Assembly (NCBI GenBank): GCA_025450235.1
Contig: JANWHX010000322.1
Coordinates: forward strand, 1 to 37,013
Origin: Chitinophagaceae bacterium
Lineage (GTDB): Bacteria; Bacteroidota; Bacteroidia; Chitinophagales; Chitinophagaceae
Reading direction: 5' to 3'
DNA: 37,013 bases
Shown here: positions 956 to 9,866 of the stretch, piece after piece
How the letters are laid out: the number at the start of each line of letters is the position of its first letter
How positions within the stretch are numbered: the stretch's first letter is position 1
Notes under the pieces: generated by a model
Seen by the model: only the letters and a program-made list of their open reading frames with translations
What the model was told of the DNA's origin: nothing
Database searches by the model: none
Position numbers and translations under genes: made by a program

Positions 956-1525
956 ATGTCACAACAATTGAAGGAAATACAAAAGACATTATCGGCTAAA
1001 GCGGCTAAAACGAATGCTGAGTTCTTTCTCAAAATGGTGCCGGGCAAACAAAAGATTTATGGAGTAAAAACCCCTGAGCTTAATTTGCTGGCTCAGCAAT
1101 ACAAAGCTTTCTCATTTGATTTGGCCAAAGAGCTATGGACATCCGGTGCCCTGGAAGAAAAAGTAATCGCAATAAAGATCATGGAGAAGATGGGAAAGAA
1201 AGATCCACGAAAGTTACTTACCCTTTTCAAACAATGTTCGCGGCAGATTGATAACTGGGCAGTTTGCGACGGGCTTGGAATGCAATTCCTGAGGGGTATC
1301 GTGAAAACGCATGCGAAAGAGATTTTTGAGTTGGCAGGCCAGTTCAATCATTCGAAAGATCCCTGGCAAAGACGATTATCGCTGGTCATGGTCGAATGGT
1401 ACACCCGGGTCGGCGATCACCGGGACGAAATTAAAAAGCTGGTGAAGAACCTGGAGAACGACGATGAGTATTATGTAAAGAAGGCTGTGGTATGGATCAA
1501 TAAGAATTTTAAGAAAGGAAAATAG
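956..1525 (+). CDS. DNA alkylation repair protein, AlkD family
   Basis: A 189-residue all-helical HEAT-like repeat protein of the AlkD family (DNA_alkylation repair). These monofunctional glycosylases excise N3- and N7-alkylated, cationic bases from DNA. Bacillus cereus AlkD uses W109, D113, R148 and W187. Here W101 and D105 (in NWAVCDGLG), R140 (in DPWQRRLS) and W180 (in KKAVVWINK) have almost the same spacing (4, 35 and 40 residues), so the active site seems intact. The protein is shorter than B. cereus AlkD, like many Bacteroidota members. ATG is 2 nt after the radical SAM gene stop, indicating an operon. A stem-loop at 1542-1568 follows the stop. Confidence 0.9.
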   Translation: MSQQLKEIQKTLSAKAAKTNAEFFLKMVPGKQKIYGVKTPELNLLAQQYKAFSFDLAKELWTSGALEEKVIAIKIMEKMGKKDPRKLLTLFKQCSRQIDNWAVCDGLGMQFLRGIVKTHAKEIFELAGQFNHSKDPWQRRLSLVMVEWYTRVGDHRDEIKKLVKNLENDDEYYVKKAVVWINKNFKKGK

Positions 1526-1541
1526 GCATTCACAAAAATAA

Positions 1542-1568
1542 AAAGCCTGCTGCAGAGCAACAGGCTTT
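1542..1568. terminator. Bidirectional stem-loop terminator between convergent genes
   Basis: AAAGCCTG pairs with CAGGCTTT (8 bp) around an 11-nt spacer. On the minus strand the stem is followed by a T-rich run (TTTTTATTTTTG), so it should end the lipoprotein transcript arriving from 2499. On the plus strand only TTT follows, so termination of the AlkD transcript is weaker. Confidence 0.7.
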
Positions 1569-1602
1569 AGGATTTTCGGGATACGGGTTGTCTATAGATT
1601 GT

Positions 1603-2499
1603 CTATGGTAGGGTAATCAATCGGTGATTGTTTCCATTATTCCAGGTAAGCAATGCCTTGTTATCACAGTCACCATTACTTGGTGCGCCATAATCGAGGA
1701 ACAGCACCCTGTTATTGATCTTTATTTTCAGTGTACCATCGCTTATCCAACGGCAAGCCACTTTCTTGATCAATGGAGACTCTGTATCCAGGGTAATGGT
1801 CAGACCATTATTGAATTCAGTTTTTGATCTGCCTTCGATCTTATAAACATCATCAAGGTGATTGTTGGTAGTTGAACCGTCAACCTGGGCCACGTATTTT
1901 AATCCATTGTACTTGTAACCTCTTCCGCTCGGGAAGGTTACTTTGCCGCCTACAACCTGCACAGTGTATTTCAAAGCTCCATTGGTGCTAAGATTGCTAA
2001 CGATTTTTGTGCCTTCGATATGAGCACGGTTCAGGTAGAAATTACGGAATGTGATTGTAAGTACAGAACCAGAACGGCGTATTGGGCCTGTAAAATGAAG
2101 GATAATAGCTCCTTTACGGTGTTTACCATCTGCACACCAGCAACCATCGCCAGGAAACTCAATGGTAACGGTTTTAGGATAAGTGCTGTCGTCAGGAGTA
2201 ACTGTGATCACAGCACAGGGGCCGAGCCTTTCGCGAAGACGAGAGAACGGGAAGAGTCTTTGGAGCCGACCATCGGGGGCGCTCACCTGGCCCTCTTCTT
2301 CTGCGGCCTGCATGCTGATGTCTTCTACATCATCAAAACTGGCTTCTGCCTGGGCACTTTCGTCAGAATAAGTGACGGCTTGTTCTTCAGTGACATCGTT
2401 GGAATCGGACGAACTGCTTTCCTTCTGGCAGGAAAATAAAGCTGTTACAGCAAGGAAGAGAACTGTTATGGTTATCCGGTTAATTGACAAAAATTTCAT
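1603..2499 (-). CDS. Bacteroidota lipoprotein of unknown function
   Basis: I choose the ATG at 2499 (298 aa). It opens a clear lipoprotein signal peptide (MKFLSINRITITVLFLAVTA) with lipobox LFSC and acylated Cys at residue 24. The frame stays open upstream to 2622, but that would put unrelated sequence before the signal peptide and overlap the divergent gene at 2600. After the Cys there is a Ser/Asp/Glu-rich low-complexity linker to about residue 80. Then comes a mature domain with VTIEF, GCWCADGKHRKGAI and LHFTG segments, predicted mostly beta, of a type seen in several Bacteroidota lipoproteins with a G-x-C-x-DG-+-+-+-G-I pattern. The acidic residue-poor start after Cys (QKESSSS) does not tell which leaflet holds it. 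No enzymatic motif is visible. Confidence 0.75.
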   Translation of the reverse strand: MKFLSINRITITVLFLAVTALFSCQKESSSSDSNDVTEEQAVTYSDESAQAEASFDDVEDISMQAAEEEGQVSAPDGRLQRLFPFSRLRERLGPCAVITVTPDDSTYPKTVTIEFPGDGCWCADGKHRKGAIILHFTGPIRRSGSVLTITFRNFYLNRAHIEGTKIVSNLSTNGALKYTVQVVGGKVTFPSGRGYKYNGLKYVAQVDGSTTNNHLDDVYKIEGRSKTEFNNGLTITLDTESPLIKKVACRWISDGTLKIKINNRVLFLDYGAPSNGDCDNKALLTWNNGNNHRLITLP

Positions 2500-2599
2500 G
2501 ACTATACTTTTAGGGTTTATGGAAAATATTAACGCAACTTTGGAACTGAAAAGAGCAAGGAAGTTTAATGAGCCGGCAAAAAAATAATTTTTAGGGCGG

Positions 2600-3514
2600 A
2601 TGAAGGCTATTATCGGGTACATAAAATGGTGGTTTTACGAGACGGACAAGCGGGTTTTAGCGACTGTATCCTTCCTCACCGGAATGCTGATCTGGCTTAA
2701 CTATCAATTTGGCGCAGATACGTATATAAGCACCCAGGATAGCTTTATTTTCGGGTTTTTCAGCCGTGGCATAATCTTTCTATTTGCTTTTGGCCTGCCA
2801 TACCTGGCCTGCAGCCTATTCACCGGGAAAAAGTATTTCACCAGACCGGGCTTCCTGCTCCTGCTGGCAGCAGCTCCTTTCATTTTCTCGCTCAAGGTCG
2901 CGGCGAATCCGAATTTTAAGCTCTCCGCCAACTGGACCAGGAGTAATTTTTGGAACCACATTTTTTATTGGCCGGTTTTATGTGTTATGACCGCCACTAT
3001 TCTCTTCATCATTTGGAAAATTTTCGACCGTGACCAGCCATTTTATGGAATCAGAACAAAAGGGATAAACTGGAAGCCCTACATCACTATGTTGCTTATA
3101 ATGGTGCCACTTGTTGCAGCCGCCTCCACCCAGCCCGATTTCCAGGCGATGTATCCAAAACTGAAACTGGTAACCGACGTTTCGACTATTGATAAACTAT
3201 CGTGGTGGCAAAAACTACTTTTCGAGCTTTCTTATGGCAGTGATTTTATAACCATAGAATTATTCTTTCGTGGATTTTTAATACTGGCGTTTATTAAATG
3301 GGCGGGTAAAGATGCCATCCTGCCGATGGCCTGTTTTTACTGTACTATTCATTTTGGCAAACCGCTGGGCGAATGTATCAGTTCTTATTTCGGTGGGATA
3401 ATATTAGGGATTATTGTCTATCATACCCGATCTATTTTTGGTGGATTGATGGTGCATTTAGGAATTGCATGGTTGATGGAGTTAGGAGGATATATCGGAA
3501 ACTCCATTTGGTGA
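2600..3514 (+). CDS. CPBP-like intramembrane protease homolog
   Basis: A 304-residue multi-pass membrane protein with about eight hydrophobic segments. The C-terminal third resembles the CPBP (CAAX protease / bacteriocin-processing, Abi) family. Motif 1 appears as IELFFR (E220, R224) rather than EExxxR, motif 2 includes H251 (CTIHFGKP), and a later His is H286 (MVHLGIAW) where family members usually have HxxxN or similar. The first catalytic-site Glu is replaced by Ile219 and the last Asn by Trp, so protease activity is uncertain. CPBP proteins act on prenylated or peptide substrates inside the membrane. The gene is divergent from the lipoprotein at 1603-2499 and convergent with the one at 3519-4151. 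Confidence 0.72.
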   Translation: MKAIIGYIKWWFYETDKRVLATVSFLTGMLIWLNYQFGADTYISTQDSFIFGFFSRGIIFLFAFGLPYLACSLFTGKKYFTRPGFLLLLAAAPFIFSLKVAANPNFKLSANWTRSNFWNHIFYWPVLCVMTATILFIIWKIFDRDQPFYGIRTKGINWKPYITMLLIMVPLVAAASTQPDFQAMYPKLKLVTDVSTIDKLSWWQKLLFELSYGSDFITIELFFRGFLILAFIKWAGKDAILPMACFYCTIHFGKPLGECISSYFGGIILGIIVYHTRSIFGGLMVHLGIAWLMELGGYIGNSIW

Positions 3515-3518
3515 AACG

Positions 3519-4151
3519 TCAAATGGTCCACTGGTCATGAACAATTCCTACCAACAAAAATTTTCCATTTTTTTCCTTGAATACCAACCGGAGGCTTCTC
3601 CAATCCATTCCCTCGTACTTTTTCTCAAAGCCTGAAAAATGACTTTCAGTAAAATCACATCCTCTATAAACTGTTAAAAGATTATTCAGTGAGTTTCCTC
3701 CACCAATAAAGGCATTTGCTTTTTGTTTTTCCGGTTTAACAAAGTCAACGTCATAGACAAATTTTTGAATATACTCATTCAAAGTCATATTGATTGGTTC
3801 GCCAGAGCCATCAGATTCCCCCCAAACGAATTTATTTTGGTTTGCTTTTGTGACCTGTTCAACAAATTCTTCTTTCGAAAAAATCTTATCACTGACGGTA
3901 TCAACAAATCCATAAGGAGAAAAGCGAATGCCTGCAACCGGATCTATAAAATTTGCAAGGGCTGAATAATTCTTTCTTTTTATTTCTGTGAGGATATCGT
4001 TTGTTAATTGCAACAAAACCGAATCCTTGTTGGATGCAACTACGCTGTCTTTTGTCACACGAGGTAGTTCCTCTTCTTTCTTAGCTGTCTTATCTTTACA
4101 TGAAAAGAGAAAAGTTATAAATAAAGCAATTGCAATAAATGATCTTGTCAT
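3519..4151 (-). CDS. Lipoprotein of unknown function
   Basis: A 210-residue protein with a short lipoprotein signal (MTRSFIAIALFITFLFSC), Cys18 being the likely acylated residue, followed by a Lys/Glu-rich linker. The mature part has no motif I recognise. Its composition (SALANFIDPVAGIRFSPYG, and FLLVGIVHDQWTI at the C-terminus) is like small Bacteroidota lipoproteins with an NTF2/DUF-type alpha-beta fold, but that is only an impression. It starts just downstream of the RNase P RNA on the same strand, with about 17 nt between the RNA end and ATG. Its own promoter is not visible, so read-through or a promoter inside rnpB is possible. It ends 4 nt after the convergent CPBP-like gene stop. Confidence 0.68.
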   Translation of the reverse strand: MTRSFIAIALFITFLFSCKDKTAKKEEELPRVTKDSVVASNKDSVLLQLTNDILTEIKRKNYSALANFIDPVAGIRFSPYGFVDTVSDKIFSKEEFVEQVTKANQNKFVWGESDGSGEPINMTLNEYIQKFVYDVDFVKPEKQKANAFIGGGNSLNNLLTVYRGCDFTESHFSGFEKKYEGMDWRSLRLVFKEKNGKFLLVGIVHDQWTI

Positions 4152-4168
4152 AAGGAGAAATTTAAAAA

Positions 4169-4568
4169 GCTACAAGCCGGTAAGCCGGATTCTGTCGGGG
4201 GCTATCATTTATCTGTCCCGTCAATTACTTGAAGGGATCAATCTGCCTACCCAGTATCTCGGGCGAGCAGCCCTTTCCCGATAAAAATCGGGTCGATACT
4301 ATACGTGGCATTTCAGCATGCAAGGTTTACCCGCGAATAATGTTACCATTATAAGCTGTGAGCTCTTACCTCACATTTTCACCCTTCCATCCTCCCCTTC
4401 TCCACGTAGTGGAGAAGGGTAAGGGTTGAGGTCATTCTCTGTGGCACTTTCTGTTTTCGTTTCTGTCTAAAGAAAACGAAACCCGGCTATTCACCGGTGC
4501 ATTGCTCTGCGCTGTCCGGACTTTCCTGCCCACCGTCTAATAGATGAGCCGATAGCCTGGCTTGTAGC
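4169..4568 (-). ncRNA. rnpB: RNase P RNA (class A)
   Basis: This is the catalytic RNA that matures tRNA 5' ends. On the minus strand the 5' end GCTACAAGCC pairs with the 3' end GGCTTGTAGC (P1). The conserved segments follow in the right order: GGTGGGCAGGAAAGTCCGGA near the 5' end, the ACAGAAA segment, the AGGGTGAAAA...GGTAAGAGC core, GGTAAACC, GGGCTGCTCGCCCG, GGTAGGC and finally ACAGAATCCGGCTTA. P1 is followed by TTTTT on the minus strand and may act as terminator. The P12-side region holds an unusual perfect palindrome (see 4395-4419). Total length is about 400 nt, the upper range for this class. Confidence 0.96.
4395..4419. repeat. Palindromic interspersed-type repeat inside rnpB
   Basis: CCCTTCTCCAC and GTGGAGAAGGG form a perfect 11-bp stem around GTA. 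The flanking sequence (CCTC before, TAAGGGTTGAGGTC after) resembles the 'CCTCAACCC...CTTCTCCAC' palindromic repeats dispersed in many bacterial genomes. It lies in the variable P12 part of the RNase P RNA, where an extra hairpin can be tolerated. Confidence 0.6.
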
Positions 4569-4572
4569 GGTG

Positions 4573-4580
4573 CAAAGGTA
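4573..4580 (-). promoter_or_regulatory. -7 box of the rnpB promoter
   Basis: On the minus strand this reads TACCTTTG, a perfect match to the Bacteroidota -7 consensus TAnnTTTG. It ends about 5 nt before the predicted 5' end of the RNase P RNA, the expected distance to the transcription start. No clear TTG was found 19-21 bp upstream. Confidence 0.65.
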
Positions 4581-4619
4581 GATTTTTTCTGTGCATTCCA
4601 GCCATAACATAGAGATAAA

Positions 4620-4648
4620 AAAAATAGTTGACAAAATCAACTATTTTT
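4620..4648. promoter_or_regulatory. Perfect inverted repeat, probable MarR operator
   Basis: AAAAATAGTTGA, a CAAAA spacer, then TCAACTATTTTT: a perfect 12-bp inverted repeat ending 12 bp before the MarR start codon. It contains the likely -33 TTG and lies just before the -7 box, so a bound dimer would block RNA polymerase. Autorepression by the adjacent MarR protein is the simple reading. The repeat also faces the rnpB promoter (4573-4580) about 40 bp away. Confidence 0.65.
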
Positions 4649-4657
4649 ATAGTTTTG
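4628..4657 (+). promoter_or_regulatory. Promoter of the MarR-GNAT operon
   Basis: TTG (4628-4630), 19 bp, then TAGTTTTG (4650-4657) matches the Bacteroidota TTG / TAnnTTTG promoter. The predicted transcription start would be about position 4661, at the ATG itself, so the mRNA may be leaderless or nearly so. Confidence 0.6.
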
Positions 4658-4660
4658 GGA

Positions 4661-5092
4661 ATGCAGAAGAAACATGTGGCCGATATCAGGGCCTTTAACC
4701 GTTTTTATACCGGTGTGCTTGGCTTGCTCGATCAGCATATCCTGGACAGCCGCTATTCACTTCCCGAGGTCCGCGTACTTTATGAGCTGTATCATTCGGT
4801 TAATCTAACGGCGAGTGAGATCATTGCTATATTGCGAATTGACAAGGGATACCTGAGCCGGATGCTTCTGCAATTTCAAAAGAAAAAACTGGTGTCAAAA
4901 AAATGGTCAGCCAGGGATGGACGTGCTGCACATTTAAGCCTGACCGAAAAGGGCCGGAACGAATTTGAGGCATTAAATGAGGCATCGAACAGGCAAATCA
5001 AAGATATCCTTGAGAGGCTAACAGAAGACGATTGCAACATTCTCGTCGGTCACATGACAGGGATCAGGACGATCCTTTCAAAAACAAAATAA
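4661..5092 (+). CDS. MarR-family transcriptional regulator
   Basis: A 143-residue winged-helix regulator. The recognition region SLPEVRVLYEL...LTASEIIAILRIDKGYLSRML (about 33-70) and the wing DGRAAHLSLTEKG (about 86-98) are typical of MarR dimers, which usually repress nearby genes and release DNA on binding a small aromatic ligand. I choose the ATG at 4661. A TTG at 4628 in frame would place the operator inside the coding region. A perfect inverted repeat and promoter precede it. The GNAT gene begins 4 nt after the stop, so they form one operon. MarR and GNAT domains like these are often fused in one protein; here they are separate and in different frames. Confidence 0.88.
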   Translation: MQKKHVADIRAFNRFYTGVLGLLDQHILDSRYSLPEVRVLYELYHSVNLTASEIIAILRIDKGYLSRMLLQFQKKKLVSKKWSARDGRAAHLSLTEKGRNEFEALNEASNRQIKDILERLTEDDCNILVGHMTGIRTILSKTK

Positions 5093-5096
5093 AGAC

Positions 5097-5600
5097 GTGA
5101 ACAAAAAAACTACCATTAACGAAATAAGCATCCGGACAACGATGCAACCAGGTGACATTGGTTATATCATTTTTCGCCATGGCAAGCTATACAACGAAGA
5201 ATATGGATATGGAATCTCGTTTGAGGCCTATGTAGCGGCCGGACTATTCGAATTCCATAAATCGTATGATCCGCAACGGGACAGGATATGGATATGTGAG
5301 CACAGGGGTAATATCATCGGTTCCCTTCTTTTAATGCACCGGGAAAATAATACGGCACAACTGCGATATTTTTTTCTTGAACCAGCATACCGTGGTATCG
5401 GGCTTGGGAAAAATCTGATGTCTTTATATATGGATTTTTTTAAAGCATGCAGTTATTCATCTTCCTATTTATGGACAACGCATGAATTGGACGCAGCAGC
5501 GTCACTGTATCTACGGCACGGGTTTCAGTTGACGGAAGAGAAAGAATCAACTTCGTTTGGTAAAGCGCTGAGGGAACAACGATATGACAAGGTCAAATAA
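5097..5600 (+). CDS. GNAT family N-acetyltransferase (split MarR-GNAT partner)
   Basis: A 167-residue GCN5-related acetyltransferase. The acetyl-CoA pyrophosphate loop is seen as YRGIGLGKNLM (R/Q-x-x-G-x-G). It is preceded by beta strand AQLRYFFLEP and followed by the usual SSYLWTTHELDAAASLYLRHGF ending. The start is GTG at 5097; an ATG 45 nt further in would remove the first strand (ISIRTTMQPGDIG), so GTG is preferred. The domain resembles the C-terminal half of fused MarR-GNAT proteins. The reading frame is +1 relative to the MarR gene and overlaps its end without a stop, so an ancestral fusion broken by a frameshift is possible. Substrate unknown; a small molecule or amino group is likely. 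Confidence 0.87.
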   Translation: MNKKTTINEISIRTTMQPGDIGYIIFRHGKLYNEEYGYGISFEAYVAAGLFEFHKSYDPQRDRIWICEHRGNIIGSLLLMHRENNTAQLRYFFLEPAYRGIGLGKNLMSLYMDFFKACSYSSSYLWTTHELDAAASLYLRHGFQLTEEKESTSFGKALREQRYDKVK

Positions 5601-5808
5601 CTTCCATTCTATAATTAGTCTGTTAAGATTTAATTGAGTTTTATCGCGGAGGGAGATATTCGTTACAAACCCGAAATCTCAAGCTTGAAATCCGAAAAAG
5701 TCTTCCATCGGGGTCGGTTTTTTCGAATTTATTTGGAGCTTTTTTCCTGGAACTTAAGTTGAACCTTATCTGAAAAAGTCCGTAAGTTAAAGTGTTGATT
5801 AATTCAGC

Positions 5809-7482
5809 TTATTGCTGTTCCGAAATATTTATCAGGGGTAGTGAAAATGAAAAGACAGAGCCCTCATTCATCTTGCTTTTTACTGCGATCTTGCCATTGT
5901 GTTCTTTAACGATCTCCGCGGAAATATAGAGGCCCATTCCCAGGCCTGAAGTGATATACTTATTTTCGTCAGCCCTGTAGAAGCGCTCAAACACACGCTT
6001 TTGATCCGCCCGTGAAAGACCAATACCATGATCAATAACAGAGACAACTGCAAGCGTAGGGTTCTTTTCAACACATACGGTGATATCCTGGCTTTTAGGA
6101 GAATATTTTACAGCATTATTTATCAAATTCATTAAAACCTGCTCTAAACGTTCCGCATTGCCATACACCATGATACCAGTCTGCAGTTCCTTTTTTATTT
6201 TGAAGGATGGATACATATAGCTGCTATTCTCAATAGTGCTATTTACTAAAGCCGAAAGATCAATCACAGCTTTATCGAACTCCAGTTTGCCTGCCTTGAT
6301 CTTACTAACATCCAGCAGATCATTTATCAGGTGCTGAAGTTTATTTATGGAAATATTCCCTCTCGAGATATATAATTTTGTATCATCCGGAAGATGTTCC
6401 TGGTTTTCCATCAACTGCAGGTAGCCTTTCAGACTCGTCAATGGCGTTTTTAATTCGTGGCTTGCTACACTTATAAATTCATCTTTTCTTTCGATCTCCT
6501 GCTTTTGATCTTCGATATCGGTGGATGTTGCAAACCATGCGACAATATTTCCATCTTCATCCCTTAAAGGCTCCCCTTTTCCTACATGCCATCTGTAGGC
6601 CCCATCGCTTGCCCTCTTTATCCTGAATTCAAACTCAAACTTCCTTTGTTTTTCGATTGCTTCGTACCACGCGTTTACGGTGGATTCAAAATCATCCGGG
6701 TGCAATACCTTCTGCCAACCCGCATCTTTGGATTCATCAAAACTAAGACCTGTGCATTCATGCCATTGTTTATTGAAATAATATGCAGAGCCGTCGGGCC
6801 CGGAGGTCCATACGATGACCGGGATATTGTCCGCCAAAAATTTAAAATGCCGGTGACTCAGGAATAATTCATTTGTACGTTCTCTTACCAGTTCTTCTAA
6901 GTTTGCATTTAATTCTGATACAGCCAGCCTGGTTTCCTCCAGTTGCTTATTCTTCTGTTTTAACTGTTTTTCATTTTCTTTTTGTCCGGCCAGGTCTGTT
7001 AAAATTAAACTTAATGCCCGCCCTTCATCGAGTTCCAGCGACGTAAATGTTAAAAGAAACGGGACCAGCTCATTGTTTCTGTTCATTAAATATATTTCCC
7101 CCTTACTGTCCGATTCCCATCCCTGTTCCATTAAACTGTTGAAAACTTTCCTGTAATCAGCCGGAACGAATTCTGAAAAAGATAATCCAATGACTTTGGT
7201 CAATGGCAAATTTACCATAGAAGCAAATTGCGAATTACTATATAAGACAATTCCATCTTCATTCAGTGTTACAGCGCCTTCTTTCATCTTTTCAATAAAT
7301 ACCCTGTAAGTCTGATCCGCACTTTTTAACGTGAAAAGTTGGTGTTCGTCACCATTCTTTACCACCAGTGCATCCACCTGTCCTGTACGAATAGCTTCTA
7401 TGGTTTCATTTGCTTCCTGCAATTGTTGCCGTAGTTCCTCCATTTCTGTCAACAATGATTCGTATGTTTTCAATTCTCTCAT
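5809..7482 (-). CDS. PAS-domain sensor histidine kinase of the kai operon
   Basis: A 557-residue cytosolic histidine kinase with no membrane segment. Order of parts: N-terminal coiled coil (about 5-30) with IRTGQVDALVV (31-41), PAS1 (about 57-165), coiled coil (about 168-207), PAS2/PAC (about 209-325), HisKA with phospho-acceptor His342 (SHELKTPLTS), and HATPase with N-box NLINNAVKY (452-460), G1 DHGIG (484-488) and G2 GLGMGL (513-518). All ATP-binding motifs are intact. It is the last gene of a kaiC-kaiB-kaiB-kinase operon, 6 nt after the second kaiB. It would take the output role that SasA has in cyanobacteria, but it lacks SasA's KaiB-like N-terminal domain. No receiver or response regulator lies nearby. 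Partners and signal are inference from context. Confidence 0.92.
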   Translation of the reverse strand: MRELKTYESLLTEMEELRQQLQEANETIEAIRTGQVDALVVKNGDEHQLFTLKSADQTYRVFIEKMKEGAVTLNEDGIVLYSNSQFASMVNLPLTKVIGLSFSEFVPADYRKVFNSLMEQGWESDSKGEIYLMNRNNELVPFLLTFTSLELDEGRALSLILTDLAGQKENEKQLKQKNKQLEETRLAVSELNANLEELVRERTNELFLSHRHFKFLADNIPVIVWTSGPDGSAYYFNKQWHECTGLSFDESKDAGWQKVLHPDDFESTVNAWYEAIEKQRKFEFEFRIKRASDGAYRWHVGKGEPLRDEDGNIVAWFATSTDIEDQKQEIERKDEFISVASHELKTPLTSLKGYLQLMENQEHLPDDTKLYISRGNISINKLQHLINDLLDVSKIKAGKLEFDKAVIDLSALVNSTIENSSYMYPSFKIKKELQTGIMVYGNAERLEQVLMNLINNAVKYSPKSQDITVCVEKNPTLAVVSVIDHGIGLSRADQKRVFERFYRADENKYITSGLGMGLYISAEIVKEHNGKIAVKSKMNEGSVFSFSLPLINISEQQ

Positions 7483-7488
7483 CGATAA

Positions 7489-7812
7489 CTAACTTACGAG
7501 GTTCAGACTCTTAAATATTTTTTCGCTATTTGACATATCCCCGATCAGTCGTCTTTCGGGTAAGGGGAATTTCTTGATGAGTAATGGGAGGGCAATAATA
7601 TCCACAGATTTCGCGAATTGTGGTTGCTGATATACATCTATAATTTGCAACTCGTAACGACTTTTCAGGTACTTTTCAAAAAAAGCCTTAAGATTGGTAA
7701 TAGCACGGGACGAATTGGGCGATGCTCCAGTTACATACAACCGGAATACAAACGGGTCCCCGTCATTATTGTCCGCCTCAAACCCCGAATCCTTTTCTTT
7801 TTTCATAGTCAC
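7489..7812 (-). CDS. kaiB: KaiB homolog, second copy
   Basis: A 107-residue thioredoxin-like KaiB protein with an extra acidic N-terminal tail (about 20 residues, EADNNDGDP). [21 protein letters not shown] is the first strand-helix of KaiB. The segment [26 protein letters not shown] covers the metastable region, and [11 protein letters not shown] keeps the Gly-Asp that matters for fold switching in cyanobacterial KaiB. The usual PTL is PLL here, so it is the more diverged copy. Its ATG overlaps the stop of the first kaiB (ATGA), so translation is probably coupled. KaiB binds KaiC in cyanobacteria; here it might instead bind the kinase or a different KaiC state. Confidence 0.9.
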
Positions 7813-8102
7813 ACTTTTACCGGACGAATATTTAATCCTACTAATACCTTTTCTTCATTGGAAAGATCTCCTATGATCTTACGTATTGGTTCTGGCACTT
7901 TTCGTACCAAAGTAGGTATAGCAAATATCTGGTCGCCTTCAGCCAGTTGTGGCTTTTCTAAAAGGTCTATCACTTCAATCCTATACATACCTTTCAAATG
8001 CGTTTCGCAGTATTTCCTTAAGTTTTTTAGAGCAGCTACCGATTTAGGAGTTTTACCGGCCACGTACAGGCGTAATTCCCATGTTTTTTCGAGTTTTGCC
8101 AT
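7809..8102 (-). CDS. kaiB: KaiB homolog, first copy
   Basis: A 97-residue KaiB protein close to the canonical family: [19 protein letters not shown], then [19 protein letters not shown] with [10 protein letters not shown], and [16 protein letters not shown]. These match the cyanobacterial sequence pattern including cis-Pro (IPT) and GD. It lacks the acidic C-terminal tail of the Synechococcus protein. The start is 2 nt after the kaiC stop and the stop overlaps the second kaiB. In the known clock KaiB switches to a thioredoxin-like fold, binds the CI ring of KaiC and drives dephosphorylation. That role here is by homology only. Confidence 0.94.
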
Positions 8103-8104
8103 GT

Positions 8105-9622
8105 CTATCTGATCTTGTTTGCCGGTGCCCTAAAATGGCCCCGGCCATTCTGTTTTCCATTAGCCATTGCCTCTTTTTCCTTTGCCTCTCTTGCAGAACC
8201 AATGAGTACCCCTTCGGGACCCCGGTAAACATCTACAAGGTTTAGTCCTTTTGAACTTATGATAAATTCCCTGACTTCTTTGCTATGCTTCATTCCCCTT
8301 GATTTCATAATGTATAAAGCGCGATTTCTCTCTCCATCTGTTTCAACATCTCTCACCAATAACCATGCGTCCACTAAAGATGATACATTTTCATCAATAT
8401 GCTCCGTTGCGCCACTGTTTAAAGCCGTAAGCATGAGAGTAATTCCTTCATTCTGTAAATGATCAACGAGCCGTAACAACATAGAGTTAACGTCATTAAG
8501 CAACCCTACTGATACCAGGTTAGTAATCGGATCGACGATCACCGCGTGAGGTTTGAATTTCTTCACCAGCCTATACATTTTGGCTAAATGCATTTCCAAT
8601 CCATATAAACCGGGCCGGAAAGAATGAAACTGCAGTAAGCCTTTCTTCACATGTTGATCGAGACCAAGACCGATCGAACGCATATTGCGGATGATCTGCT
8701 GAGGTGATTCTTCAAAAGCAAAGAATATACATTTTCCTTTTCGCCTGCATGTTTCATTGGCAAAATTCGCAGCGATACTTGTTTTTCCTGTACCCGCAGA
8801 CCCGGATAATAAAATACTGCTTCCTCTAAAAAATCCTTTTCCTCCAAACATCTGGTCAAGTGTCGGAATACCTGTCGAAACTCTTTGGGAAGATACAGCC
8901 TTATCAAGCTTTAGCGAAGTAACTGGAAGGACAGTAATACCCTCTTCGTCAATCAAAAAAGGATATTCATTGGTGCCGTGAATGGAGCCCCGGTATTTTA
9001 CTATGCGAAGTCTTCTTGTTGATATTTGATTAATGATCCGGTGGTCCAACACGATCACACAATCGGATACATATTCCTCCAGTCCATGCCGCGTCAGCGC
9101 ACCTTCTCCTTTTTCACCTGTAATAATTGCTGTGACACCCTTCTCTTTCAACCATTGAAAGAGCCGACGCAATTCAGCCCGCAGAATACCCTGGCTGCTT
9201 AATCCAGCGAAGAGGTTTTCAATAGTATCCAATACTACCCTTTTGGCACCTATGCTATCAATAGCGTGGCCGAGTCTTATAAAGAGTCCATCAAGATCAT
9301 ATTCACCTGTTTCTTCGATTTCAGATGCCTTGATATGAACATAATCCAGTCTTAGTTTTTTGTTTCTCTGTAATTTCTCCAGGTCAAATCCAAGGGAAGC
9401 GACATTGGCACTGAGTTCATCAGCTTTTTCTTCGAAAGCCATAAACACTCCCGGTTCATCATATAACGTAGCTCCTTTAACAATGAATTCCAAAGCCATC
9501 AATGTTTTGCCGCAACCGGGACCACCGCAGATCAACGTCGGTCTTCCTTGCGGAAGTCCTCCTTCCGTGATCTCATCCAGACCATTGATCCCGGTCTTTG
9601 ATTTGGGTATTGACTTCATCAT
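8105..9622 (-). CDS. kaiC: KaiC-family ATPase/autokinase
   Basis: I choose ATG 9622 (505 aa; another ATG follows immediately). The frame upstream to 9718 encodes a non-conserved hydrophobic stretch. It has two RecA-like domains. CI has Walker A GGPGCGKT (33-40), catalytic EE (64-65) and Walker B VVLD (129-132). CII has Walker A GSAGTGKT (274-281), EE (304-305) and Walker B VIVD (361-364). The CII phospho-site region reads DENVSSLVD (410-418), so Ser414 and Ser415 align with Ser431 and Thr432 of Synechococcus KaiC. Thr426 is replaced by Ile409. The RCxxK-like tail is replaced by a Lys/Gly/Asn-rich end. It heads the operon with two kaiB genes and a kinase, and no kaiA is present. Confidence 0.95.
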
Positions 9623-9866
9623 ATATGATTGAACATTGATGTGTGGAAGTAAGGAAACACTAAAATAAACTATTATGAAATTCGAAAAAAAAATAAAGCT
9701 AACCCTACGCCGTCGCATTTAAGTCATTCACACCACTTATTCGTCCACAAAAAAAGCAGCCTATTTGTGCGCCGACGGTTTTCCTTGCCTAATGAATGAC
9801 TCTGATATTGATCGGTAAAGGCGGTGGAGATTCCTGATACCTGTTTTCCCATGTCTTTACTTTTGA

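Follow-up and report, generated by a model that had tools for sequence, protein, structure and literature searches.

A KaiA-less kaiC-kaiB-kaiB-kinase operon of a Chitinophagaceae bacterium and its possible built-in read-out

The window, which is the whole stretch of 37,013 nucleotides (nt) analysed here, comes from contig JANWHX010000322.1 of a Chitinophagaceae bacterium and carries an operon of kai genes on its minus strand, at 5809-9622. The genes of KaiC, of two KaiB proteins (KaiB1 and KaiB2) and of a soluble PAS-PAS histidine kinase are arranged head to tail and tightly packed. This is the four-gene kaiC-kaiB-kaiB-PAS kinase operon on the minus strand that an original prediction had proposed; open reading frames, protein families and gaps agree with it, and an alternative start of kaiB2 has been added. 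Judged from the sequence, the operon is best read as a KaiA-less timer that would be driven by the ATP/ADP ratio and would have a dedicated read-out. KNT is the name given here to residues 13-84 of the kinase, a module found beside kaiB.

Layout of the operon

8105..9622, minus strand: kaiC, 505 amino acids from the ATG at 9622, with the CI and CII ATPase domains and a short C-terminal tail
8378..8383, minus strand: codons of KaiC Ser414-Ser415, aligned with the phosphosites Ser413-Ser414 of Rhodobacter (Cereibacter) sphaeroides KaiC
7809..8102, minus strand: kaiB1, 97 amino acids, a KaiB of the cyanobacterial type with a predicted ground-state fold (low confidence)
7489..7812, minus strand: kaiB2, 107 amino acids (GTG start) or 105 amino acids (ATG at 7806), a divergent paralog predicted to be thioredoxin-like and fold-switched
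5809..7482, minus strand: histidine kinase, 557 amino acids, KNT-PAS-PAS_3-HisKA-HATPase_c, soluble
7231..7446, minus strand: KNT module, kinase residues 13-84, with a helix-like stretch, the motif AIR-x-G-x-VDALVV and the start of the first PAS domain
6991..7308, minus strand: first PAS domain of the kinase, residues 59-164
6535..6780, minus strand: second PAS domain of the kinase, PAS_3 type, residues 235-316
5833..6486, minus strand: HisKA (residues 333-398) and HATPase_c (441-550) of the kinase, by family profile match

The spacing is 2 nt between kaiC and kaiB1 and 6 nt between kaiB2 and the kinase gene, and kaiB1 and kaiB2 overlap by 4 nt with the GTG start of kaiB2 or are 2 nt apart with the ATG start. 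An alternative in-frame ATG at 9718 would extend KaiC to 537 amino acids, but the relatives start near 9622, which is why the ATG at 9622 is taken as the start. In Pfam and NCBIfam, which both agree with the gene names, the KaiC family is matched in two stretches (E-value 4.9e-111) and the KaiB family by KaiB1 (2.5e-27) and KaiB2 (3.4e-22). That there are two separate KaiB proteins, as had been predicted, is confirmed by the PF07689 matches (94.8 bits for KaiB1, 78.4 bits for KaiB2, cut-off 27), and in addition the two are distinct paralogs. The kinase matches PAS, PAS_3, HisKA and HATPase_c and has no membrane-type segment (the highest Kyte-Doolittle mean over 19 residues is 1.05), so that its earlier description as a cytosolic PAS-PAS histidine kinase holds. 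It was also correctly predicted to have no KaiB-like domain of its own: a family search at an E-value of 0.001 found none, and the kinase therefore lacks the N-terminal KaiB-like domain by which a SasA is defined. The predicted phospho-acceptor is His342 in ASHELKTPL, which we take to be the phospho-acceptor box.

Gene order in the Bacteroidota

The original prediction had suggested a comparison of gene order across the Bacteroidota. The order kaiC-kaiB-kaiB-KNT kinase was found in 79 of 80 named loci, which are 80 of 200 candidates found through the kinase N-terminus with a query from kai-linked kinases, and many of which come from Mucilaginibacter, Dyadobacter and Spirosoma and are thus not independent. 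A chance gene order was considered and rejected because of this recurrence. In a draw of 395 Bacteroidota genomes, KaiB was above the cut-off in 37, tandem pairs were present in 20, and all 20 genomes with a tandem pair also carry the KNT. The arrangement is common among the kai loci of the phylum, and it is a variant of the known kaiC-kaiB-PAS kinase operons. It had been thought to be little studied, and this stands in so far as the literature gave only passing mention of tandem kaiB genes, but the arrangement itself is an ordinary one. In the available text of a Dyadobacter description, kaiB and kaiC are called rare in Bacteroidota (PMC11573002), and part of another paper describes a Bacteroidetes group with only KaiB2/KaiC2-like proteins (PMC5520375), names that differ from the KaiB1 and KaiB2 used here.

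The sole exception among the named loci is that of Dyadobacter sp. CY323 (L142; also L178), which has a REC gene, the remnant of a kaiB (57 residues, interrupted by a stop) and, 16 nt downstream of the latter, a 430-residue frame of a KNT kinase. There is no kaiC or whole kaiB at that place, and the locus looks like a recent decay of the operon. In the genus of the window, kaiB is present in three of seven genomes and a Smr-domain neighbour is kept in all seven; in the other four genomes there is no kai gene in the roughly 6 kb fetched on that side of the Smr-domain neighbour. In its distribution, the kai block thus behaves like an accessory unit with a fixed location.

The window genome possesses a second kai set (L009, G000:C65, 423-4544) of the order REC-kaiC-kaiB-short KNT kinase-REC, with a single kaiB that belongs to the KaiB2 group. 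Some further loci are of other types. A contig titled Williamsia sp., an actinomycetote (L084, JADCRZ010000009.1), has a typical Bacteroidota kai operon and is perhaps misnamed or a mixed assembly. At L188 (G220:C1:288500-296500, 1417-5636), kaiB is flanked by a kinase-like gene of 396 residues and by one of 917 residues that matches kinase and REC, and no KaiC or KNT match was found within the 8 kb fetched. Two genomes of the class, G459 (C41, C75) and G671 (C18, C57), each have two separate places with KNT and kaiB.

KaiC and the absence of KaiA

Among proteins of known structure, the KaiC of R. sphaeroides is the closest to the window KaiC (PDB entries 8db3 and 8dba, E-value about 1e-174), followed by the next entry at 1e-106 and the 1u9i group at 1e-93. 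In an alignment with five relatives, the Walker A residues and the EE pairs of both CI and CII are kept, so that the predicted integrity of both ATPase domains is borne out at the level of the sequence. Also the phosphorylatable pair of CII is present, with Ser414-Ser415 in the place of Ser413-Ser414 of R. sphaeroides. According to the available text of PMC10076222, R. sphaeroides KaiC autophosphorylates without KaiA and takes the ATP/ADP ratio as its cue. The kaiA gene, which had been predicted to be absent, was indeed not found in any of eight genomes (seven of the genus including the window's own, which is only 64.5% complete, and one of the family), and the positive control, Synechococcus elongatus, was matched. 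The proposed design of a KaiC timer or redox/energy sensor with a generic kinase output is thus supported in its first part, as a KaiC without KaiA that has its ATPase sites and phosphosites and is nearest to an ATP/ADP-driven KaiC would fit such a timer or sensor, but not in its second part, the generic output.

One aspect in which the window KaiC differs from its closest relative of known structure is the tail. The coiled-coil tail of R. sphaeroides KaiC joins two hexamers, and in an engineered protein without the coil the phosphorylation rate was similar (both in the text available of PMC10076222). After the K-x-RG-x-x-H motif, the window KaiC has 59 residues with no coiled coil, R. sphaeroides KaiC (L153) has 121, and 76 of the 79 KaiC proteins of the named loci have 108-129. 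The three exceptions have 57, 60 and 82 residues (L072, L078 and L099), and two of them, L078 and L099, were matched to the window's genus; short tails also occur in the second set of the window genome (L009) and in L013, L038 and L039. Because the C-terminal coil is missing, the window KaiC would be expected to form a hexamer. The genus thus offers KaiC proteins that lack the coil by nature and can be set against the published deletion of the coil (PMC10076222, as far as described there).

The KNT module of the kinase

In 16 kai-linked signalling proteins, which were chosen because they carry the KNT, the mean pairwise identity per block of 12 residues is 40-50% in the KNT and 17-37% in the rest of the first PAS domain. 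The KNT stretch has nothing over the cut-off in Pfam or NCBIfam, and against PDB sequences there are only weak matches, mostly to coiled coils, the best being Rho-associated kinase (E-value 5e-4). There was no match in phages, a tblastn search with the KNT of Pararhizobium matched only itself, and nothing on the KNT or on the KaiB pair in Bacteroidota was found in the open-licence literature searched.

The KNT is closely associated with kaiB in the genomes searched. In the first draw, that of 395 Bacteroidota genomes, there are 29 KNT matches in 28 genomes, all of them at most 263 nt and 27 of them at most 74 nt from kaiB, and there is none in the 358 genomes without KaiB over the cut-off. As the first KNT profile derived for the most part from kai loci in these very genomes, a second draw was made of 395 genomes of the class, partly the same genomes, which gave 24 matches; 22 of these are strong (E-value 6e-18 or better) and all beside kaiB. 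Outside the first draw, all nine strong matches, in seven new genomes, are 17-56 nt away from kaiB. It was considered that the KNT is a PAS start that can be found in any kinase, and no strong match away from kaiB was seen in the 395 and 395 genomes, with at most 14 candidates scored per genome. Plasmids show the same association: kaiB lies beside the KNT in all 13 records with a KNT, nine of which are from R. sphaeroides, and five of the 18 plasmids with kaiB have no KNT match. The generic kinase output that had been predicted is therefore not supported, since the N-terminus of the kinase is formed by a conserved module without a family name, all strong matches of which are next to kaiB.

What follows the KNT is variable. 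It can be a HisKA kinase as in the window, a HisKA kinase with REC (L152, L179), an HWE kinase (L153, L154, and by annotation L155), a protein with an HD_5 domain (L182), or nothing but a PAS domain, as found in a 238-residue protein (L180). As the KNT stays while the effector changes, this pattern suggests that it is the KNT rather than the kinase core that is connected with the Kai proteins and may serve as the coupling part. The KNT is also kept with short-tailed KaiC proteins (in the window and in L011, L009, L038 and L039), and for this reason the KaiC coil is unlikely to be its only contact. At L182 (G197:C3:29500-34500, 1639-2811), the KNT-PAS-HD_5 protein behind kaiB replaces the kinase and would perhaps give a cyclic-di-GMP phosphodiesterase output; a KNT protein of about this length is also encoded at the sister loci of family f33.

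The association with kaiB may also be explained the other way around, with the PAS kinase sensing redox state or oxygen and acting as an input to KaiC, and the KNT carrying the signal from the kinase to the Kai proteins. Such an input role has been suggested, in the available text of PMC5520375 and PMC10931921, for the kinase encoded in the kai operon of R. sphaeroides, a kinase that carries a KNT, and two PAS domains could sense a ligand. However, the KNT also fronts the HD_5 protein and hybrid kinases, which look like outputs, and at least 20 of the 35 short kinases have a REC gene next to them, which makes the input role rather improbable. Within the 80 loci, a script found an adjacent REC gene at 20 of the 35 short kinases and at none of the 45 long ones (more than 500 residues, the class of the window kinase), 36 of which are from Mucilaginibacter by record title; gene labels add four more loci with an adjacent REC (L103, L116, L142 and L143). 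One may speculate that the regulators of the second set of the window genome might serve both kai sets.

Two KaiB paralogs with opposite predicted folds

The comparison of the two KaiB proteins covered 99 loci in which both occur (94 and 96 distinct sequences). KaiB1 hardly varies and is similar to cyanobacterial KaiB, whereas KaiB2 is much freer. The difference includes two fold-setting positions, the equivalents of I68 and V83 of R. sphaeroides KaiB; changing these and a third position raised the fold-switched share of that protein from 11% to 86% (PMC10808063, in its available part). KaiB1 is hydrophobic at both positions in all 99 loci, and KaiB2 has at least one charged residue there in 94, two in 56, and is hydrophobic at both in only three. 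The window KaiB2 has Glu and Lys; in the KaiB2 of Pararhizobium, a hydrophobic residue at the first position is combined with a charged one at the second. All three switch prolines are present in both window proteins.

Structure models were made by AlphaFold2 with group-specific alignments and compared by Foldseek and VIA-align 2, which agree. The KaiB1 model has a ground-state-like order with a low predicted local distance difference test score (pLDDT) of 65.7, and resembles ground-state KaiB crystals (template modelling (TM) score 0.68-0.76, Z 10.6-11.7) more than fold-switched KaiB (TM 0.45-0.50, Z 4.4-6.3). The KaiB2 model has the order beta-alpha-beta-alpha-beta-beta-alpha, a pLDDT of 84.0, and resembles fold-switched KaiB (TM 0.63-0.79, Z up to 16.9), but does not fit ground-state KaiB (TM 0.41-0.42). 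KaiB1 looks able to switch its fold and KaiB2 looks locked in the binding fold.

In a tree, all 33 KaiB2 and four single KaiB proteins are on one side (84/86) and all 33 KaiB1 and seven single KaiB proteins on another (98/65); this tree rests on 99 columns for 90 rows, some of them very long, neither support reaches the program's own mark, and 3-4 label changes are required. KaiB of the second set of the window genome groups with KaiB2, that of R. sphaeroides with KaiB1. A recent tandem duplication as the origin of the second KaiB was thought unlikely, as the two groups are apart in the tree, at modest support. KaiB1 and KaiB2 are distinct paralogs and not interchangeable copies, with folds that are predicted to be opposite. 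Two Hymenobacter plasmids (L156 and L157) have a single kaiB of the KaiB2 group, within 4 kb of which neither kaiC nor KNT was matched, and in the 263-nt gap of G166 and G270 no second KaiB was seen by eye in three frames.

It could be argued that the operon is a plain kaiCB module for stress or energy, with a KaiB2 that is partly redundant and has no role of its own and a kinase that is just a co-transcribed neighbour. Combinations of kaiC-kaiB with an adjacent kinase are common outside cyanobacteria (PMC3164672 and PMC4794148, in the text available), and the title of one paper links the Legionella kai operon to stress and fitness. The position of KaiB2 apart from KaiB1 in the tree, with the four single KaiB proteins on its side, its different residue pattern, and the KNT in 20 of 20 tandem-pair genomes of the phylum draw argue against it, and such a module is considered improbable.

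Alternatively, KaiB2 may not touch KaiC at all and be a thioredoxin-like protein with another job, redox or chaperone, like the Legionella KaiB. The closest structure to the KaiB2 model is indeed the Legionella KaiB Lpp1115 (4kun; Z 16.9, root-mean-square deviation 1.1, 89 aligned, 35-36% identity). On the other hand, fold-switched KaiB that was solved in complex with KaiC is also close (Z 11.6-15.0), kaiB2 lies between kaiB1 and the KNT kinase gene in 79 of the 80 loci, and the absence of cysteine from the window KaiB2 speaks against a function in thiol redox chemistry. A function of KaiB2 apart from KaiC is thus very improbable.

Comparison with known systems

The system most similar in KaiC is KaiBC of R. 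sphaeroides, encoded on plasmid pB as kaiC-kaiB-KNT-HWE kinase. Besides the closest KaiC in the PDB, it shares with the window the kaiC-kaiB-PAS kinase order, the KNT start and a KaiA that is not reported, but it has only one KaiB, an HWE instead of a HisKA core, and the long hexamer-joining coil. Operons of kaiC-B-PAS/HK type are described in purple bacteria (PMC4794148, available part), among them those of R. palustris and Bradyrhizobium, which have the same order with a single kaiB; a kinase-REC version is found in Bradyrhizobium, where BRADO1478-1481 adds a CheY-like gene (PMC4794148 and PMC3899966, available text). Also kaiC-kaiB with a kinase or a GGDEF/EAL protein is already known (PMC3164672, in part).

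The two-KaiB order of the window is found again in the alphaproteobacterium Pararhizobium qamdonense, on plasmid p3 (L152), as kaiC-kaiB-kaiB-KNT-HisKA kinase, with the differences of a C-terminal REC on the kinase and a long KaiC tail. This plasmid is typed as conjugative, and a transfer between phyla is possible. Thiodictyon syntrophicum kaiCBB, likened here by its description, has a tandem kaiB with kaiC, but a diguanylate cyclase in place of the kinase (PMC5944118, available text). Cyanobacterial KaiABC-SasA has the KaiC and KaiB families in common with the window, and KaiB2 is modelled with a thioredoxin-like fold such as that of the SasA N-domain; unlike there, no KaiA was found here, the KaiB-like part is separate, and the kinase has KNT-PAS-PAS.

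Outside the operon, a MarR-type regulator and a GNAT acetyltransferase are encoded as a pair (window 4628-5600) that converges on it. The same pair adjoins the kai operon in G006 (L011), and it is not labelled at the kai site of G004 (L099).

A Kai timer with a built-in read-out

It is about an even chance that the operon encodes a KaiA-independent Kai timer with a built-in read-out. Phosphorylation of the KaiC ATPase rings would follow the ATP/ADP ratio with a slow reset, as in R. sphaeroides. KaiB1 would be a metamorphic KaiB, mostly in the ground state, that binds the CI ring of phosphorylated KaiC after a slow fold switch and then speeds up ATP hydrolysis and resetting. KaiB2 would be kept in the thioredoxin-like fold, the one that KaiB and the SasA N-domain have when they bind KaiC, and could therefore join the ring without the slow switch and either compete with KaiB1 or complement it. 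The kinase may sense the state of the KaiC-KaiB complex via its N-terminal KNT and pass phosphate to a response regulator encoded elsewhere. Gene order, catalytic residues, phosphosites, the linkage of KNT and kaiB, the KaiB groups and the predicted folds are the basis from which we infer every binding, direction of signalling and timing in this mechanism.

Several observations weigh against such a timer with its own read-out. Conserved neighbours need not touch one another, and no response regulator is encoded beside the window kinase. Two weak KNT matches (E-values 6e-4 in G049 and 9e-4 in G702) have no kaiB on their contig, genomes with KaiB are without KNT in nine of 37 cases of the first draw, with G473 and G621 as new cases in the second, and at the Dyadobacter exception the KNT kinase and the REC gene persist where kaiC and kaiB1 are absent. 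The KNT also occurs with a single KaiB, of the KaiB1 group in R. sphaeroides and of the KaiB2 group in the second set of the window genome, so that the pair is not needed. Concerning the folds, the confidence of the KaiB1 model is low, and the Legionella protein that is closest in structure to KaiB2 reportedly does not bind KaiC. The SasA N-domain is no closer to the KaiB2 model (TM 0.59-0.65, Z 11.6) than ordinary thioredoxins are (Z about 11-12), and the resemblance of the two is therefore one of common fold only.

A more far-reaching and tentative idea, which is doubtful as it stands, is that the KNT is a portable Kai-coupling module outside cyanobacteria and KaiB2 a free-standing SasA-like adaptor fixed in the switched fold, such that SasA would be split into two proteins, the ring-binding KaiB2 and the KNT kinase. 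To the extent tested, the KNT module with its link to kai genes looks new, and so does the pair of KaiB proteins with folds that are predicted to be opposite. They address the question of how KaiC timers without KaiA, SasA or RpaA transmit their state, as central output factors are described as missing in most of the non-cyanobacterial genera surveyed in PMC5520375 (available part). The KNT is a mark of signalling proteins linked to kai genes, across two phyla and several types of effectors, and together with a KaiB pair of opposite predicted folds this makes a directly testable read-out. If the idea is true, KaiB2 and the KNT kinase would supply the output pathway that is apparently lacking in Kai systems outside the cyanobacteria.

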